DNA of 64,000 nt from Pleurotus ostreatus/Saccharomyces cerevisiae fusant (taxonomy: Eukaryota > Opisthokonta): NCBI GenBank assembly GCA_024196135.1, contig JAMQCK010000009.1, forward strand, positions 186,001 to 250,000, given 5' to 3'. Every line of letters begins with the position of its first letter. Within the stretch, counting starts at the first letter, position 1. The notes below the pieces were generated by a model. It was not told the origin of the DNA. It made no database searches and was given only the letters and a program-made list of their open reading frames with translations. Below are positions 20,293-29,582 of the stretch, one piece after another. A program made the translations under genes and the position numbers.

Positions 20293-21385
20293 TGTCGTGG
20301 TGGTTCTAGTGGTTCTGAATAAAAGAGCATCGGCGGTAAGGAATGAATTAGGCGTCGCTGGTGGCGATGTCGTGGCGGTCGTTGCCGAGGCTGTAATGAT
20401 CGTCGGAGGGTCAGAAATGCCGGGAAACGTAGGAGAAGTATATTTGCGCACTATCAAAGTTGGTGTAGGTTAGAGAAAGCGAAAAGGAGGGCCTGACGGC
20501 GGGGAATATTGCTCGAAGATGATGGCTCCGGACAAGAATAATGATTGCCAAAAAGAGCAAGTCGAAAATCAGAAAACTTGCTGGACTGCACTTGGCTCCG
20601 CTATTTATTTACAATCGACGTTGCTGGGCGATTTCCGCGACCTGGCGCGTATAGATGAAGTCCCAAGAGGTCCAGAAACTGTGCAGATGACAGTTCGGGA
20701 AGACCGAGGAGTTTGCGCTAGAACAGAACGGGCGCAACCTTTGATTGGCATAGCAACGAAGATGCCTTTCGACTCAATAGACTTGATCAGCTGCTCTGCA
20801 GATGGATACCCATAAGCACGAAAGAGGACCGGAGTGAGCCTTGCGATGCACTCTTCCTGTTCGTACAGCAGCGTCGTATTTGAAGGAATTTGAAGGGAGG
20901 AGGTTCGCTCAAGAAGTCATGATCATGCTCGATACCGTCGCGTCCGTGAACGGACCACAACTGGGGTAAAATCTCTTTGCCTTGTCCTCATATATTATAC
21001 TTTGGAGGTAGCGATATGCGACGCGGGCTGACGTTCATTAGGGGGAACAGCGCAGCGCAAGGAAACCAAGAGCTTAAGACCAAACCTAGCAAGTGTCATT
21101 CCGCCCTACGCTGCCTGAACCTGCATGAAGGCGAACTTCAGCTAGCCCACAGACGTCTTGACTGTCTGAGCTGGATTGACCAGGATTACCACGGAACTCG
21201 ATCACTAACTCCAACACCCAAATCCGTGGTAATCCTGGTCAATCCGACGTCCGATCACCATTTGTTGCCTATTTGGGAAACAACACTTCACGTGCTGGCC
21301 ATAAAATGCACGTGGTTTTATGGGCACATCGCAGCCCGTCATCATCGAAAGCATTAACGCGCAGAATACTCGCCGGAGCGCACAG
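20293..21385. other. Intergenic up to the transposon
   Basis: No supported gene. Contains the perfect hairpin at 21173-21245 and ends at the left terminus of the Plavaka element. Confidence 0.5.
21173..21245. repeat. Perfect 23-bp inverted repeat with 27-nt loop
   Basis: Left arm 21173-21195 (starts GGATTGACCAGG) is the exact reverse complement of the right arm 21223-21245 (ends CCTGGTCAATCC). The loop is 21196-21222. No flanking duplication or coding frame explains it. It lies 141 bp outside the left end of the Plavaka element. It could be a tiny foldback element, a transcribed hairpin or a recombination scar. Confidence 0.85.
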
Positions 21386-21397
21386 CATCAGGAAAAG
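21386..21397 (+). repeat. Left terminal inverted repeat of the Plavaka element
   Basis: CATCAGGAAAAG, followed by an imperfect extension (GCCAAGTTG) that matches the right end in part. Confidence 0.85.
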
Positions 21398-21429
21398 GCC
21401 AAGTTGGGTAAAACGTCAAGATAAGCACG

Positions 21430-21630
21430 AAGCCACCCCTAGTCAGCCGACAAAAGCTGAGATTTGGGAGTAAGATCGCTCATACCGGGTAATATGGCTT
21501 ATTATGTGGCCTGGCCACAACTCGAAGCCGGAATAAGCCGCACACAGAGTATAGTAAGCTCAAAGTAAGCCAGACACAAGCCGCAAACAAGCCAGATGTG
21601 AGCCACAGGACGGCGGATGTAAGCCAAGCC
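21430..21630 (+). repeat. Left subterminal AAGCC array
   Basis: AAGCC occurs at 21430, 21525, 21535, 21567, 21578, 21589, 21621 and 21626 on the plus strand, most within GTAAGCC, ATAAGCC or ACAAGCC contexts. Clustered short subterminal repeats are the usual transposase binding sites of CACTA-like elements. Confidence 0.7.
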
Positions 21631-21812
21631 CTTCGACATTGATACATGCAAATAAGCGTAAACAAGGGTCCACAAATACGCATGCGTCGTCGACTGGAAA
21701 GCAGAGAACACACTTTGTTCAGATGGAGCACACAGTAGCCTCACGACGTATGAGAAACTAACAAATCAGTGCATTAGGACGAAGTAAGCTATATCATACG
21801 ACAACCCAAGAA

Positions 21813-23858
21813 TTAACCTTCCATCGCATCTATGTCTACCATTCCCATGATGTCCTCCACCTCGATATCGTATCCAGTCTCCATGTTCTCACTGTACAGT
21901 AACATCAGTGTGAGTCAGGAATACAACAACAAAAACGAACCTGGAGCGCTCATATAAATGAGCCAATAGATGGTTGTATTTCGTCAGATTGGCAGCCTTG
22001 ATGTTGTCGAGCACGCCCAGAAGACCCTTGTACGCGCCGAGGCAGAACTTGGTGGCAAAGTCCTTGGCGCTATATTGGCCAGAAGGGCTCCCCCACTGGT
22101 GGAGGGCGACGAATATCTACAGCACATGTAAGCCAGTTGGCAGTAACACATAAATATAAGAGACGTACCGCTGTAGCAGCCAAAGCCACCGTTGGAGCTG
22201 GGACTTGCACCATGCCGTTGTACTTCGGGAACTTCTCGATGAAGCGCCCAACCGATCTATCCCTCTTCGAAGAGAAGAGGGCGTGCTCGAGGACGGCAAT
22301 GACGCAGGGGTGCAGGAAGGCCTTGCCCTTGTCAGGAGATCCATCTTCCTATCAAGGTGTTAGTAAAGGGCATTGAATCAGGACGAAGGTGACAGTACCT
22401 TCGTGTCGTTGATGAAGGAAAAGGTCTTAAGCATATGCGAGATCCTGGCGGAGAGCTCGCCCTTCGGTATGCGCTTCAAACCATACGAAGATGCGACCTG
22501 GTTCTCCGCAACTACCTTCCAAGGACGGCGGAAGGTAGCCATGCGGGTCTTGAGCTGCCAAAGGAGTCAGAAAAGATAACAATATACAGATGTTTTCGGA
22601 CTTACATGTCGCCTCAATGCGTGAAAGTAGGCCGGGTCGTGGCGTACACGATCAGCAATGGCAGGATAATGGTTGGCCTCCGCAGCCTTGATGATAGCGT
22701 CGCGTATGTAGGCCATTATCGTCGTATCGGAATGGAAGGCGACGCGAAAGAGGATGTCGTACTTGATGTTCTCTTCGGTGGCGGCAAGGACGGTGCGCAG
22801 CTCGATGCTCTGACGGAGAACGGCGAGTTCGCGGGTGGAGCCGACAATGTTGGTATAGTCAGGGAAGTGGATAACGGTCTGGCTAGTAGGGTGCAGCGAA
22901 GGGGTGGATTGGGAGGGTTGATGCGGGGGGTCGTCGTTGATGACAGGCTCCTAGGTAAGGTCAGCAAGTGGTGAGACTATAGACTTGGTAAACGACGCAC
23001 CTCGGCAAGACGTTGGGCGTCACGGCGTCCGCGAGGTCGATGCGGACGCCCACGAGACCCCTCTTCAGCCTCACTGTCGAAGAGGCGCGATGGATCGCGG
23101 CCTCCTGGTTGCTCCGAAACCTCGTCTTCAAAGTGGGGAACCTACGGTATGTCAGCACCGGTCGCAGAGGTATACTATTGCAACGTACTTCTTGCTGCGT
23201 ATCGACCTCGGGTTCCTGTTCCCCGTCCTCAACACCGTCGTCACCACCGTCTTCGGGTCCCTCGTCGTCTACGTCTGCGCGGGGTGTGTCGTACTCGTCT
23301 TCCTCCTCGTCAGCGCGCACGCGCGCAGCCTGGCGGCGGTGCTTCGGAGGCTGAGTGCGATCGATGTCGTCGCGGTTGCTGTCGTCCTCGTCGTCACTGT
23401 TCAGATTAATGTCTTGCGATCCCAGAGGCACGCGCTGACGCGACACAGGCCTGTCGCGTTGGGCGCGCGCAGCATCAGCACGGCAGTTCACTGCGTGCAC
23501 TGGGCATGGCAGTTAGTGTGTGTGAGACGGGGCTAGATGGCGACGCACCGCCGGTGGTAGAATTCGTCCTCGGTCGCTTGGACGGAGGACCGCGGCTCGT
23601 CTCCTGAGACGACCGCTTGCTGCCCGCGCGTCCGACACGTATATTCGTAGAAGCTAGGGTGACATTAGCCAATGGGCAACGAGTAGTATCAGTGCACGCA
23701 CCATGGCTGTCGGCGACCCGCTGTTGAGCAACTCGCGGTCGCTGCGTACCGCCCGTTACGGTTGTCGCAGCGGCACGCTGAGCGGTGGACTTGCTCCGCT
23801 CGCGCGTGTCCCGACGTGGTCCAGCGTTCGGTCGACGTGAGGAGGAGGAGGGAGGCAT
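21813..23858 (-). CDS. DUF6532-domain protein carried inside the Plavaka element
   Basis: Minus-strand, about six exons, ATG at 23858 (MPPSSSSRRPNAGPRRDTRE), TAA at 21813-21815 (ending MGMVDIDAMEG). The first ~90 residues are basic and Ser/Arg/Lys-rich with nuclear-localisation-like clusters (SKRPRT-type). A long acidic linker follows (SDDEDDSNRDDIDR; DEEEDEYDTPRADVDDEGPE). The C-terminal ~250 residues form the DUF6532 core: DAIIKAAEANHYPAIADRV, FRRPWKVVAENQVASSYGL, FLHPCVIAVLEHALFSS, PAPTVALAATAIFVALHQW and YNHLLAHLYERSR. DUF6532 is a basidiomycete domain of unknown function. Because the gene lies wholly between the transposon ends and shares the divergent promoter, a role as an accessory factor of transposition (DNA binding or regulation) is inferred. 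Confidence 0.75.
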
Positions 23859-24766
23859 TGTAAGTAGTGTACTAATTAAGGCGAGTTCAACCGAATGACT
23901 GCCGGGAGAGAAGGTAGGAGGGTGAAGAAGGACGCGCGCGCGCGGCGTTTATATATGCGCTGGCCATGCGTGACGTCACGCGGAAAGTCAAGAATATTCG
24001 TCCACGCGTCCGGTGACCGGTCCGATTGTGACTTGTCCTCCTCCCCTGCGCCGTTCGCCTTCAGCCCCGTCAGGCGCTGCAATCTGGGAACACAGGGTCG
24101 GCCAAAGACCTCCTATAGGTATGTATATACCTTATACTTCGATTCCGCCCACAATCTCAGCCTGATCAAGGAACATCGCCGCCACCTACAGCCTTCCGTC
24201 CAAGAGCCGCCTCTCACTGATCCTTGTCGCCTCTGCCGTCCCCCACTTTTGCGGTACGTCCCTGCCTACGTGATCGTGATCCAAACTCACTATTATAGAC
24301 AAGGCTTCGTCCTCCCGTTGCCCACCAACCCGCATCAATATCATCAAAAAAGCTCGCTCGCCTCCTTCCTGTCTCTGTGCTTATTCCTTGCCTCCTATTC
24401 CCCCCCTTCTCGCGCGGCGCTACTACACACCACGTTTCCCCCCTTCTCGCGCGGCGCTACTACACCCCACGTTTCCCCTCTTTGGCTCGATCGCCTACAC
24501 CTACGGTTGATCACGGTCCCGAAACTCCAATCTGTCGTACTTCCACCCCCCACCCGCGCGCTGTTTGGCTTATCTGTCAATCACAATATATCCTCTGAAC
24601 TTTCTGTCACTGCAAATCGTCGCGTCTACGCTCTCAGTTCCCGAGAAATCCTTGGCAAGTGGCCCTACAAGAAGGTACGCTTTTTACTGCTGCTTAATCC
24701 ACATCAAAATCTTATTGTTCTTTTGTACTAGGCGTTGTGAATTTCAACCTTCATCGCATACGTGCT
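23859..24766. promoter_or_regulatory. Divergent promoter region of the two transposon genes
   Basis: A 0.9-kb non-coding stretch between the ATGs at 23858 (minus) and 24767 (plus). It is pyrimidine-rich on the plus strand before the transposase and contains a 37-bp tandem duplication at 24401-24474. A TTTATATATG stretch at 23949-23958 may be a TATA element for the minus-strand gene, about 95 nt from its ATG. Confidence 0.45.
24401..24474. repeat. 37-bp tandem duplication, two copies
   Basis: Copies at 24401-24437 and 24438-24474 differ at a single base (ACAC versus ACCC near the 3' end). Each contains TCGCGCGGCGCTACTACAC. Located in the promoter region of the transposase. Confidence 0.85.
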
Positions 24767-27700
24767 ATGTTTGTCAGGTGTCCAGGATGCAACAAGCGCG
24801 TCAGAAGTAATGGCCTGACAAACCATATACAACAAACTACCGACCCAATATGCATCGAATACCACCGAAATCTCGCCAATACATACTCCATGCGGGCCGA
24901 GCGCGCACCTTCCCCATCTTCCCCTCCGCCTGTCCGTCCCCTCGTGTCTCCTGAATCCATACCGGTCGATGACCCATCCGACCCGCGCAATGAAGCGCCA
25001 ATTCCGACTGATCCGGGTGGTGATTTCTTCGGGGATTACATGGGCGTCGACTTCCCCGGGATTGTAGACGATGACGATGCGGTCGTTGGATCCGAGGCGC
25101 ACCCTTCCGTGATGGACGTTGATGACCCAGTCATTTTCGACGAACTCGAAGATGACGAGGACAACTGGGAGGATATCAGCGCGGGAGGAGACGATGAGAA
25201 CGATGCTATCGACGCGCTCACTGCGGAGCTCGAAGCGCACCTTGACGATCATCTGGACGTCGAGGAAGATGTTGAGCAGGATGCAGAAGAGAGTGACGAA
25301 GACGATGAACCACACATAGAAGATGCCGAAGAGGGCGTCGAGGAAGTTGCAATGGACGTTGACGATGACTCAGGCGCTACGGTCGAGGCTGACAGTGGCA
25401 GAAGTCCTGCGCCTCCCGAGCGCGAGATGCGAGATGTTGCCGAAGAAGACTTGCGCCAGCAGCCTTTTGTGGTACGCTTTCCTGGCGGGAGGGCGGGGAA
25501 GCCTCTGCCTGGCGTACACAATACACTGCATCAGAGGTACGCTGCTAGCGTCAACGATAGCGACGGCACAAACATGTATGGCGTCTTCGGACATCAGCTT
25601 GCTTGGGAAATTGCACGATGGGCAAAGCTTCGAGGACCTAGCTCGACAGCCTTCACGGAGTTGATGAAGATCGATGGAGTGAGTCCCCGTTCGCTTTGTT
25701 AGTGAATTAAACCGATTATATTATCAAGGTCGTTGAGAGGCTTGATCTGCCATTTAAGAATTCCGCAGAGCTCAACACGCTTGTAGACGAGCACTTACCC
25801 GGCCGCCCATCATTTGTGAAGAAGCAGATCAGTCTCGGAGGCGAAGTATTTGACTTATACTTTCGGGACATCATAGAGTGTGTCAAGGCGCTCATCGGTG
25901 ACCTCGACTTCTGTCCGGTGCTGAAGTTCGAGCCTGAGAAGCATTACACGGACGATTCACAATCAGAGCGTCTATACTTCGACATGCATACGGGGCGTTG
26001 GTGGTGGGATACACAGGTGAGGATCTTCCTTATGATCTTTCTGCTGATTATCTGACTCAACGTCGCAGAAAAAGCTGGAAGCGAGGCTGCCAGGCGCAAC
26101 AGTAGTGCCTATCATCTTGTCCAGCGACAAGACGCAGCTGACGCTCTTTCGAAACAAAAGTGCGTACCCATTGTATATGACAATCGGCAACATTCCGAAG
26201 GAAGTGCGACGCAAACCGTCTGCGCGCGCCTACGTCTTGCTGGGTTATCTACCAACGTCACGCCTTCTGCATATCAAGAATGCAGCTGCACGACGTAGAT
26301 GCCTTGCGAATCTCTTCCATGCTTGTCTCCGCCGCATCGTCGCGCCTCTGAAGGCTGCCGGCTTGAATGGAGAGGCTATGACAACAGCGGATGGCTTGAC
26401 GAGGCGATGCCACCCCATCTACGCATGCTTCATCGGGGACTATCCAGAGCAGGTTCTCGTGACGTGCACCTACAGCGGTGACTGTGCGCAGTGCACGACC
26501 CCAAACGCTGCACTAGGGCACTTTGACCGCAACCTTGCCGATGGGCAGACCAGCCGTCTTCGGAATCTGGAGTCTCTCGTCAAGGTCTTTGACTCGTTCA
26601 ACGATGACCCGGGGGGCTATCTACAGCGCTGCAAGAAGCACCGTGTTCGCCCTATCATCAAGCCCTTCTGGCGCGATCTGCCTTACTCGCATGCCTATCG
26701 CGCGATAACTCCCGACGTACTCCATCAGCTTTATCAAGGTGTTGTCAAACACCTCTTGAGCTGGCTCAAAGACGTACTTGATCCTGCCGAGATGGATGCA
26801 CGGTGCCAGCGCCTCCCACCGAGCCATAGCATCCGCATCTTCATGGGCGGTATATCTAACCTCAGTCACATAACTGGGCAGACTCACGATGAGATCTGTC
26901 GAGTGCTCCTTGGTCTGGTTGTTGATGCTTGCCCACAACACAGTCAGCACCGTGACCCCCGCATAGTTCGGTGTGTCCGTGCTGTGCTCGATTTCCTCTA
27001 TCTTGCCCAATATCCCATTCACACCAATAACTCCCTCACTCTGATGAACGATGCGCTCGAGCGGTTCCACGACAACAAGAGTGTCTTCATTGATCTTGGT
27101 GTCCGCAGCGACTTCAACCTTCCCAAACTTCACTTCGCCCAGCACTACCTGACACAAATCAAGCTGTTCGGTACCACCGACAATTTCAACACCCAGTATA
27201 CTGAACGTCTTCACATTGATCTCGCCAAACATGCATACGCTGCTACAAACCGCAAGGATGAGTTTGCCCAGATGACCACCTGGCTGGAGCGGCGCGAGAA
27301 GATTCTGCAGCATGAGCAGTACATTGCTTGGCGCTGTTCAGGATCCCCTCTACCACTTCATGATCAGTGGTCCCCTCCAGGCTTGGAAACACGGAAGATG
27401 CTCAGCCTACCCAAGCATCCATCTGCACGTGCAACATTCGAGGCGCTCACTCGCGACTATGGCACAACATTCATTATTCCATCCCTCTGTCGCTTCATTG
27501 CGATGACAAACGATCCGTCAATCCGGTCCAAGCAGCAGCTCGATTACGCTGCAGCCAATATCATCCTTCCATTCACATCAGTCGAGGTGTGGCACCGGAT
27601 CAAATTTGTGCAGCAGGACGCATGGACAGGGGTTCAGGAGACGGTTGATTCTGTTCACGTCTACCCTGCGCATTGGGAAAGACGGAGGCGAGGATCTCAT

Positions 27701-28180
27701 ATCACTTCAGCGCGTTTTGACACAGCACTCATTGACATGAACAACGGAATGGCTCGAGAAACTGGAGTTCATGGTAAGTACCTGCTTTTGTGCGCTGATT
27801 TGTTTGTATTCACCAAGTGTCTAGGATATCGAGTCGGCCGCATCCGTGCTATATTTTCCATCCCTCAACAACATCTACGTCACGTCTTTCTTCCAGGAGT
27901 GCGAGTGGCGAGACATCTTGCCTACATCGAGTGGTATACCCCATTTAGCCCTCGCGCAGACCCTGACAACCTCATGTACAAGATCTCGCCCGTTCACATT
28001 GATGGGGGTATATTGTCGAGTGTTACACCGCTTGCTCACATCCGGCGTAGTGTGCATCTCTTTCCGAAGTTCGGAAGAACAGCACCTACTGAATGGACGA
28101 GCAGCAACGTTTTGGATCTTTGCAAAACATTTTACGTTAATTCATTTACAGACAAGCATCTATACCGTGTATTATATTGA
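24767..28180 (+). CDS. Plavaka-type transposase
   Basis: ATG at 24767, stop at 28178-28180. The N-terminus is a C2H2-like zinc finger (CPGCNKRVRSNGLTNHI...C). A ~200-residue acidic Asp/Glu-rich linker follows, then the conserved core: FRDIIECVKALIGD, RLYFDMHTGRWWWDTQ, VPIILSSDKTQLTLF, YMTIGNIPKEVRRKPSARA, LANLFHACLRRIVAPLKAAG, FIGDYPEQVLVTCTYSGDCA, RAITPDVLHQLYQGVVKHL, VLDFLYLAQYPIHTNNSLTL, LPKLHFAQHYLTQIKLFGTT and NTQYTERLHIDLAKHAYAAT. This order is diagnostic of Plavaka transposases. Three ~50-nt introns are inferred (after IDG, after WWWDTQ, and within VHG-YRVGRIR near 27774-27823); the last is in frame if retained. No internal stop or frameshift was found in the spliced reading, so the enzyme appears intact. 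I could not assign catalytic acidic residues with certainty. Confidence 0.9.
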
Positions 28181-28558
28181 TATAATCTGTCACTGTGCGT
28201 GTTTGCGAGACTCAATCAGCATGTTTTCTGCGAATAGTATACACATGGACATGGTAGAACCTTGCCCACAAGGTGGCTTTCATTCAAATGACAGCCCCCT
28301 GAAGATATCGCCCAAGCACCTCCGTCGCCTCTCAAGTCACATGATAAGTTGAAAATGCACGTGACCGAACCCTCGACTCGATCTCGGCACCTCACTGCAT
28401 AAGTGCTCACTCGTGGGTACTCATGGCTTATCTTCAAGGTATATACAGTAGGATCACTACCTTTGGGAAATTAGTGAGCAGAAATAAGCTACTATAAGCC
28501 AAAAAACTCGATTGAGAGCCATTGCCTTTGCTTATTCTGGCTTTTTCGGCAATCTAGG

Positions 28559-28570
28559 CTTTTCCTGATG
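28559..28570 (-). repeat. Right terminal inverted repeat of the Plavaka element
   Basis: CTTTTCCTGATG, exact reverse complement of 21386-21397. The 150 bp inside carry GGCTTAT, ATAAGCC and GCTTATTCTGGC motifs matching those of the left end. Confidence 0.85.
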
Positions 28571-28799
28571 AGGCTGCTGGCAGATGAAGCACTCCCGTAC
28601 GAGCACATTCTATTTGAGTGTCCCTCGCCCGCCCAACATCTTGACTTTATCCTCCTTTAAATATACTGACGGCCGCACTACGTCTACTCCGTTTCTGCAC
28701 TTTATAGTACTTTTTAGACCCTCTACTGTAGTCTGCCACATCATCGTTTTTCCCTCAAACCCCCGCCTTCCCCGCGATGGCATCTCCATCAATCATCGT

Positions 28800-29582
28800 T
28801 CAATCGTCCTTTTCCGAAGTCGGCAGCACCTCGACCAATTCTGCATTCTGCCGGCCCTCTTCAACCCGCGCGAAGATCTCGCGCCTGTTCCGCCCACCAC
28901 CATAGGAGACCTCGTGCACTCGGATGCGATAAAAAACCTCTCTCAGTCCCTCGCGCAGGATTTCGATGCGCTCTGCGTCGGTGACAGACTCGGCGTCGAG
29001 AGGAGTGGGGATCTTCCAGCGGACACGGCTGGTCGTCGAGGGGGCGCCAATGTTCGTCGAGCGGATGTCACTGCTCGTCGAGCGAGTGCCACTTGCGTTC
29101 GTCGAGGGGGGGCCACTCGTCGAAGGAGCACCACTTGCATTCATAGGGTGAGGACCATCGCCACCGTGCTGGAATGTGGGGAGAAAGTCGCTGCTCTTTG
29201 GGCGGTAAGCCAGGGGCATTGGCCCGCGCGGTCTGGTGGGCGGAGGGGGCGGTGAGTTTGAACGATCGTGGGCGTCCGTCACGCGAGTCCCGTGCGATGA
29301 AGGCTGCGAGGGTGCATGGCACGAGTCAGGAGCCCGGGAAGCGAACGGCGAGTGGTATATTATGGCGAGGTTGCATGCGGTGTCGATGTTCAGAGCACGA
29401 CGGGCGGGGTCCGTTTGGCTTGGGTTCGCAGGCATATTTGTTGCTCCAGGGGAAGTACGAGGAGAGAGGCTCGAGAGGTGTCGATGTGCAGCTGCAGGTG
29501 TGACGCGCGAGTCGCTAGAAAGCCTCAGAATATCTGAAGGGCTGCCAGCGAGTGGAGGCAGGGCTAAAGGGACTGGTGGCAT
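28800..29582 (-). CDS. Hypothetical low-complexity protein
   Basis: Open frame of 260 codons from ATG at 29582 to TGA at 28800-28802. The first half is Pro/Ser/Ala-rich. The middle has degenerate eight-residue repeats (GAPSTS, GPPSTNAS, GTRSTSS, NIGAPSTTS) mirrored in the DNA as spaced CGTCGAG blocks at about 29030-29140. The last ~75 residues are ordered and charged (VRWKIPTPLDAESVTDAERI, REGLREVFYRIRVHEV, REIFARVEEGRQNAELVEV), which argues that the frame is coding. On the same strand at about 29876-30000 there is a strongly hydrophobic stretch (CCAGLWVVLLLAINVVTYAR) that may be an upstream membrane-anchor exon, but I could not find a convincing splice path. Function unknown. It begins 230 bp beyond the transposon's right end. 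Confidence 0.45.
   Translation of the reverse strand: MPPVPLALPPLAGSPSDILRLSSDSRVTPAAAHRHLSSLSPRTSPGATNMPANPSQTDPARRALNIDTACNLAIIYHSPFASRAPDSCHAPSQPSSHGTRVTDAHDRSNSPPPPPTRPRGPMPLAYRPKSSDFLPTFQHGGDGPHPMNASGAPSTSGPPSTNASGTRSTSSDIRSTNIGAPSTTSRVRWKIPTPLDAESVTDAERIEILREGLREVFYRIRVHEVSYGGGRNRREIFARVEEGRQNAELVEVLPTSEKDD

Follow-up and report, generated by a model that had tools for sequence, protein, structure and literature searches.

A Plavaka transposon with a divergent DUF6532 gene and the recurrence of this pairing in one fungal genome

The element and its two genes

The stretch of DNA analyzed here, referred to as the window (64 kb; C1167 among the loci below), contains a transposon of the PlavakaB type in which a gene for a DUF6532-domain protein is transcribed divergently from the transposase gene. 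The name Plavaka was reportedly introduced by Iyer et al. (PNAS, 2014). An earlier, sequence-only reading of the locus had described a complete Plavaka element with perfect 12-bp ends, AG flanks, an intact transposase and an intact divergent DUF6532 gene, and all of these features were confirmed. They are listed below by position in the window, with the strand where one applies and the evidence in parentheses.

21384..21385, left copy of the target-site duplication, AG (flank read)
21386..28570, whole PlavakaB-type element, 7,185 bp (ends, splicing model, Pfam)
21386..21397, + strand, left terminal inverted repeat, 12 bp perfect, with an imperfect extension to 21427 (repeat search)
21386..21685, left subterminal region, 7 TAAGC and 9 AAGCC clustered in 300 bp, both strands (word counts)
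21813..23858, − strand, DUF6532 gene, 9 exons, 549 amino acids (splicing model, Pfam, public protein)
23859..24766, 908 bp that separate the start codons of the two divergent genes and are shared by them (gene models)
24767..28180, + strand, Plavaka transposase gene, 4 exons, 1,086 amino acids (splicing model, Pfam, motifs)
28271..28570, right subterminal region, 4 TAAGC and 5 AAGCC in 300 bp, both strands (word counts)
28559..28570, − strand, right terminal inverted repeat, 12 bp perfect, with an imperfect extension from 28529 (repeat search)
28571..28572, right copy of the target-site duplication, AG (flank read)

The perfect inverted repeats that bound the element read CATCAGGAAAAG, and their arms run on imperfectly to 42 bp with 74% identity. 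When up to one mismatch was allowed, the 64-kb window contained two matches to CATCAGGAAAAG, both of them the element ends; the shuffled controls averaged 0.25 matches, and 4 of 100 shuffles contained two or more, orientation and place being ignored. When the flanks were joined without the element and searched against the same genome, the sole match was the window locus itself, so that neither an empty allele nor a paralogous empty site was found.

Both gene models were built by splicing on GT-AG introns. The transposase exons (+ strand) lie at 24767-25678, 25729-26016, 26069-27773 and 27825-28180, and the product matches PF18759 with 368.7 bits (cut-off 26.3) over the full length of the profile (1-325), at residues 313-633. 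Its motifs are intact: DKTQ and DYPEQ, which supply the two D residues, the CxxC motif (CAQC at 539) and the HxxxH motif (HFAQH at 755), both located between the second D and the last E, and TERLH, which supplies the E. The two D residues and the E were conserved in the aligned Plavaka rows that reach them, the C97 row ending before the last two motifs.

The DUF6532 gene runs through nine exons on the − strand, from 23858 down to 21813, and its product matches PF20149 with 97.9 bits (cut-off 24) at residues 300-503; a Pfam scan detected no second domain besides DUF6532. The public protein P0001, from Schizophyllum commune Loenen D, has the same length of 549 amino acids and differs at 9 residues, which supports the exon model. 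This near identity indicates that the species is S. commune. All nine differences lie between residues 67 and 206, outside the DUF6532 domain, which is identical in the two proteins; this distribution suggests constraint on the domain. In the structure model, the domain is predicted to be mainly helical, whereas the N-terminus was modelled with very low confidence and is probably disordered. Together with the acidic and KR-rich stretches recognized there by eye, such an N-terminus would fit a nuclear protein.

Among the public relatives of the DUF6532 proteins, P0001-P0007 are named S. commune and P0008 is from Suillus placidus; a 129-amino-acid fragment (P0009) among the search returns was not used. 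Close to their C-termini and outside the Pfam domain, the window protein, P0001-P0005 and P0008 carry a short IDAM motif, which is thus common to S. commune families and Suillus. Part of the protein searches beyond the species scored only the candidates that shared most words and may thus have overlooked relatives; in one DUF6532 search, the low-complexity N-terminus is likely to have filled the candidate list. In the viral contigs searched, no relative of the transposase or of DUF6532 was confirmed.

Recurrence of the pairing in the genome

The sequence-only reading had considered that the pairing may recur and had suggested testing whether DUF6532 genes lie close to Plavaka transposases, and the outcome was positive for the genome searched (a 40.05-Mb assembly in 1,277 contigs, the single genome from which all results on the pairing derive). 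The PF20149 profile produced ten matches at nine places: C409, C625, C726, C367, C1156 (two matches), C97, C618, C979 and C1167, the window. C409 and C625 overlap by 6,665 bp at 99.985% identity, and C625 stops at the last base of its element; they are probably a single locus where the assembly broke, the overlap running through nearly the whole Plavaka element. They were therefore counted as one, giving eight independent DUF6532 loci, and a divergent Plavaka gene was found within approximately 6 kb at all eight. At seven of them, the contig also carries a divergently oriented PF18759 match, separated from the PF20149 match by 2.3 to 5.3 kb. The eighth, C367, has no Plavaka domain match because the contig ends; its last 1.3 kb encode a divergent Plavaka N-terminus, 64% and 56% identical to that of C97 over two pieces (E 4.6e-66). 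The DUF6532 genes of C97 and C367 were read by open frames. By our own arithmetic (24 Plavaka loci in 40.05 Mb), a random site lies within 5.3 kb of a Plavaka locus with a chance of about 0.6%, and pairing at eight of eight loci is therefore not a product of chance. This head-to-head arrangement suggests that DUF6532 serves the Plavaka elements rather than the host.

Seen from the transposase, the PF18759 search returned 44 matches on 25 contigs, or 24 loci with C409 and C625 taken together, the matches on C1057 and C1201 falling below the Pfam cut-off. A DUF6532 partner is present at nine of these loci: seven from the PF20149 search (C367, having no PF18759 match, is not among them), together with C568 and C360. 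C568 carries a more distant Plavaka and a divergent DUF6532-like gene at approximately 20.4-21.2 kb that the genome search with PF20149 missed, and its joined pieces scored 30.9 bits. An Hsp70-like fragment, recognized by eye, lies between these two genes at approximately 16.2-16.6 kb, and the locus may hold an insertion. In C360, whose Plavaka is more distant still, the divergent upstream gene scored 21.2 bits when joined by hand and 25.2 bits when spliced on GT-AG introns (cut-off 24). Judged by their response to our own nine-row profile (see below), both genes are distant relatives, and C360 is marginal. An hhalign comparison of C360 with A5 was discounted because A5 includes the C360 row, and the Pfam score was relied on. 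At C347, C326, C407, C550, C101, C836, C575 and C1209, a scan of approximately 1.5 kb around the Plavaka match with our own nine-row profile gave no DUF6532 match at E<0.5, a reach too short to find a partner; the C1209 contig ends, so that a partner cannot show there.

Both ends and both genes were recovered at five loci, namely the window and the following four.

C618 2076-9755, two-gene element with a CA/CA duplication
C726 11362-20906, two-gene element with a TC/TC duplication
C625 137090-143862 with C409 to 6704, two-gene element with a TA/TA duplication
C979 7211-14178, two-gene element with good ends and no duplication

The end pair of C726 was chosen with a bonus for the duplication, but without that bonus the identity of its ends (14 of 16) would also have put it first, the runner-up in the list reaching 9. 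At C1156, a single end was found within 12.7 kb, and the end at 7287 of C97, 3 kb past the domain match, is a candidate only. The earlier inference that DUF6532 is a mobile-element gene thus draws support from these four further complete elements as well as from the eight loci. The word "passenger", which the same reading had applied to the gene, undersells a gene that has been kept across divergent families.

The 12-mer CATCAGGAAAAG occurs 21 times in the assembly, against 5 times for the reversed string used as a control, and six inward-facing pairs were found: the window, C350, C355, C403, C620 and C978. Three of these correspond to short elements with Plavaka-type ends.

C350, short element with a GC duplication
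C355 16837-18903, short element of approximately 2 kb with a TT duplication
C403 27867-29921, short element of approximately 2 kb with an AC duplication

Neither a DUF6532 match (own profile scan) nor a Plavaka match (tblastn) was detected in the three short elements, and from their sequences they look like non-autonomous relatives without both genes. Approximately 140 bp of terminus are common to C355, C403 and the C726 element, and the C355 and C403 elements are likely to have been mobilized in trans. Copies with the same ends that never include DUF6532, which the sequence-only reading had named as evidence against its view, were not found, in that C350, C355 and C403 lack both genes rather than DUF6532 alone. 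Across the eight elements read at both ends, a 2-bp duplication is present in seven (C979 being the exception), where chance would give 1 in 16 for each.

Two repeats were also observed in the flanks of the window element. The one 140 bp outside the left end (21173-21245) consists of perfect 23-bp inverted arms around a 27-bp loop and may represent a hairpin or an unrelated small element; the other comprises three imperfect 24-bp direct repeats in the right flank at 29033-29122.

Divergence of the proteins and of the element ends

Out of 17 Plavaka rows, nine were used in the tree and six in the identity table, the others being dropped as cut, decayed or too distant. For the 15 pairs among the six closest families, identity was 62-82% in the transposase stretches (mean 67.7) and 26-50% in the DUF6532 domains (mean 33.2), the DUF6532 value being the lower one in all 15 pairs. 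Within this genome, DUF6532 therefore changes faster than the transposase and, judged by the divergence of the families, the pairing is old. In the Plavaka tree, C726, C618 and C1156 grouped together (94/100), and C568 and C97 formed another group. In the DUF6532 tree, C726, C618 and C1156 were again together (83/99), but this group also took in C360, a partial row on a long branch; C568 joined C367 (76/94). Long branches affect both trees, which are compatible with shared descent of the two genes and no proof of it.

The ends of the window element are rich in short repeats, ATAAGCCA-like words. Its two 286-bp ends, with the tips excluded, contain AAGCCA nine times and ATAAGC eight times, counts that were reached by none of 300 dinucleotide shuffles. 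Counted over both strands, TAAGC occurs 11 times and AAGCC 14 times in the two terminal 300-bp stretches taken together, whereas the 6.4 kb between the stop codons of the two genes hold 5 and 10 copies; the shared 908-bp promoter region accounts for 3 TAAGC and 2 AAGCC. These words are family-specific, as the three best words of the window element add up to 23 copies in its ends, compared with 0 to 3 in those of seven other elements. The ends of C618, C979 and C350 exceeded nearly all shuffles with different words, and those of C355 and C403 did so more weakly, whereas the middle stretches of all eight elements showed no repeat enrichment.

Proposed function and comparison with known systems

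From these observations, we propose that the window element is complete and probably autonomous, a cut-and-paste transposon of the PlavakaB type built around two core genes, and that DUF6532 is most likely a sequence-specific DNA-binding helper of the transposase (a reading to which we assign a probability of roughly 0.6). The Plavaka DDE transposase would cut the CATCAGG ends and make the 2-bp duplication, and the divergently transcribed DUF6532 protein would act as a required or helping second factor. As a nuclear sequence-specific DNA-binding protein, it would recognize the short repeats inside each end and bridge the ends or load the transposase and, as with TNPA in En/Spm, control of the shared promoter may be among its tasks as well. 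The anatomy of the element, the recurrence of the pairing in one genome and the faster divergence of DUF6532 are direct observations, whereas we infer by analogy that its protein binds DNA, is needed for transposition and has a regulatory role: because conserved transposases and tips, variable repeats and a fast-changing second protein match the pattern of CACTA elements, we read DUF6532 as a core second gene, probably a TNPA-like factor that binds family-specific subterminal repeats. A broader version, in which PlavakaB transposons throughout the Agaricomycetes have DUF6532 as their universal second gene and the domain is a new all-helical DNA-binding family co-evolving with those repeats, is tentative, and we place it somewhat short of even odds.

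Several observations weigh against this proposal, beginning with the restriction of the survey to one genome. At 15 of the 24 Plavaka loci, no PF20149 match was present on the same contig at the search cut-off, an absence that is not conclusive because the same search also missed C568 and C360. With our nine-row profile, C568 was matched at E 0.084 and C360 was not matched at E<0.5. The rank correlation between the transposase and DUF6532 identities was not significant (p 0.08), and no branch of the DUF6532 tree exceeded the support threshold. Subterminal repeats were not significant in C625 and borderline in C726. Finally, fold searches with the DUF6532 models, which rest on eight sequences, gave no convincing match to a DNA-binding protein or to any solved fold.

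The principal alternative is that the element uses DUF6532 in a different way. As a core transposon gene, it might counter silencing or control expression, like VANC of Arabidopsis VANDAL elements or the TET/JBP gene of other Plavaka families, and take no part in cutting. VANDAL elements are a different transposon group from Plavaka. VANC proteins likewise have highly variable regions and recognize short family-specific motifs (PMC5735166), and a TET/JBP gene is present in some PlavakaB families (PMC12730594). The copies of TAAGC and AAGCC within the shared promoter also agree with such a role, but the window repeats concentrate in the terminal stretches and not in the promoter, and Pfam shows no second domain in the protein; we regard this alternative as fairly unlikely. 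That DUF6532 is host cargo caught by an ancestral element, with no role in the life of the transposon, is highly improbable. Transposons do capture genes and the role of DUF6532 is unproven, yet none of the eight DUF6532 loci is free of Plavaka, the divergent layout has been kept across families with 62-82% identical transposases and in two deeper lineages, and between two strains it is the N-terminus that changed and the domain that did not.

The pairing might instead be peculiar to S. commune or to some Plavaka lineages, DUF6532 being an ordinary fungal gene family elsewhere. The single genome examined and the 15 loci without a partner at the PF20149 cut-off leave room for this, as does the existence of a DUF6532 protein, P0008, in S. 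placidus. Nevertheless, P0008 has both the DUF6532 domain and the C-terminal IDAM motif in common with the S. commune proteins, and within this genome the pairing spans divergent lineages and so probably predates them, which makes such a restriction rather improbable.

Should DUF6532 be the universal second gene, essentially all basidiomycete genes with that annotation would belong to transposons, intact or decayed, and not to the host. The pairing predicts that DUF6532 counts track Plavaka counts. It places a domain of unknown function in a biological context and gives the Plavaka elements a two-gene design testable by a simple excision assay, offering a model for a DDE transposase and a fast-evolving partner that co-evolves with the element ends. 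In the passages of the Plavaka literature examined, the pairing is not mentioned; the relevant passage of one comparative study lists Plavaka and DUF6532 together, but unlinked, among the domains that occur in Ganoderma boninense and G. leucocontextum (PMC8955403).

The available text of Kojima (2025; PMC12730594) defines PlavakaB by CATCA..TGATG termini, a 2- or 3-bp duplication, and C(2)C and H(3-4)H motifs between the second D and the last E. The window element has the Plavaka domain, these termini, a 2-bp duplication, and the CxxC and HxxxH motifs; it is a complete and ordinary PlavakaB element apart from its unexpected, recurrent second gene. That text names TET/JBP as an extra gene of some families and, as far as it extends, does not mention a DUF6532 second gene. 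Unlike the CATCA termini of the definition, CATCG is present at one or both ends in three of the five two-gene elements found here. The Pfam entry for PF20149, to which the window protein belongs by its domain match, states no function, and the family is tied here to a transposon. The resemblance to VANDAL elements lies in an accessory element protein with variable regions and short family-specific motifs (PMC5735166, in part); the function of VANC is anti-silencing, and the two proteins are likened by these traits. In CACTA elements, as described in the consulted sections of PMC2613891, the subterminal repeats are the binding sites of TNPA, neither protein is dispensable, and variation falls on the binding protein and its repeats, the transposase being conserved. 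The window element is not itself a member of CACTA or En/Spm, as it has CATCAGG termini and a 2-bp duplication instead of CACTA termini and a 3-bp one. Furthermore, TNPA and TNPD are products of a single gene region through alternative splicing (PMC2613891, same sections), whereas the element here has two separate divergent genes. What the present elements share with En/Spm is a conserved transposase alongside a second protein that diverges quickly, together with short subterminal repeats that differ from family to family, and it is by this element layout that DUF6532 is likened to TNPA.

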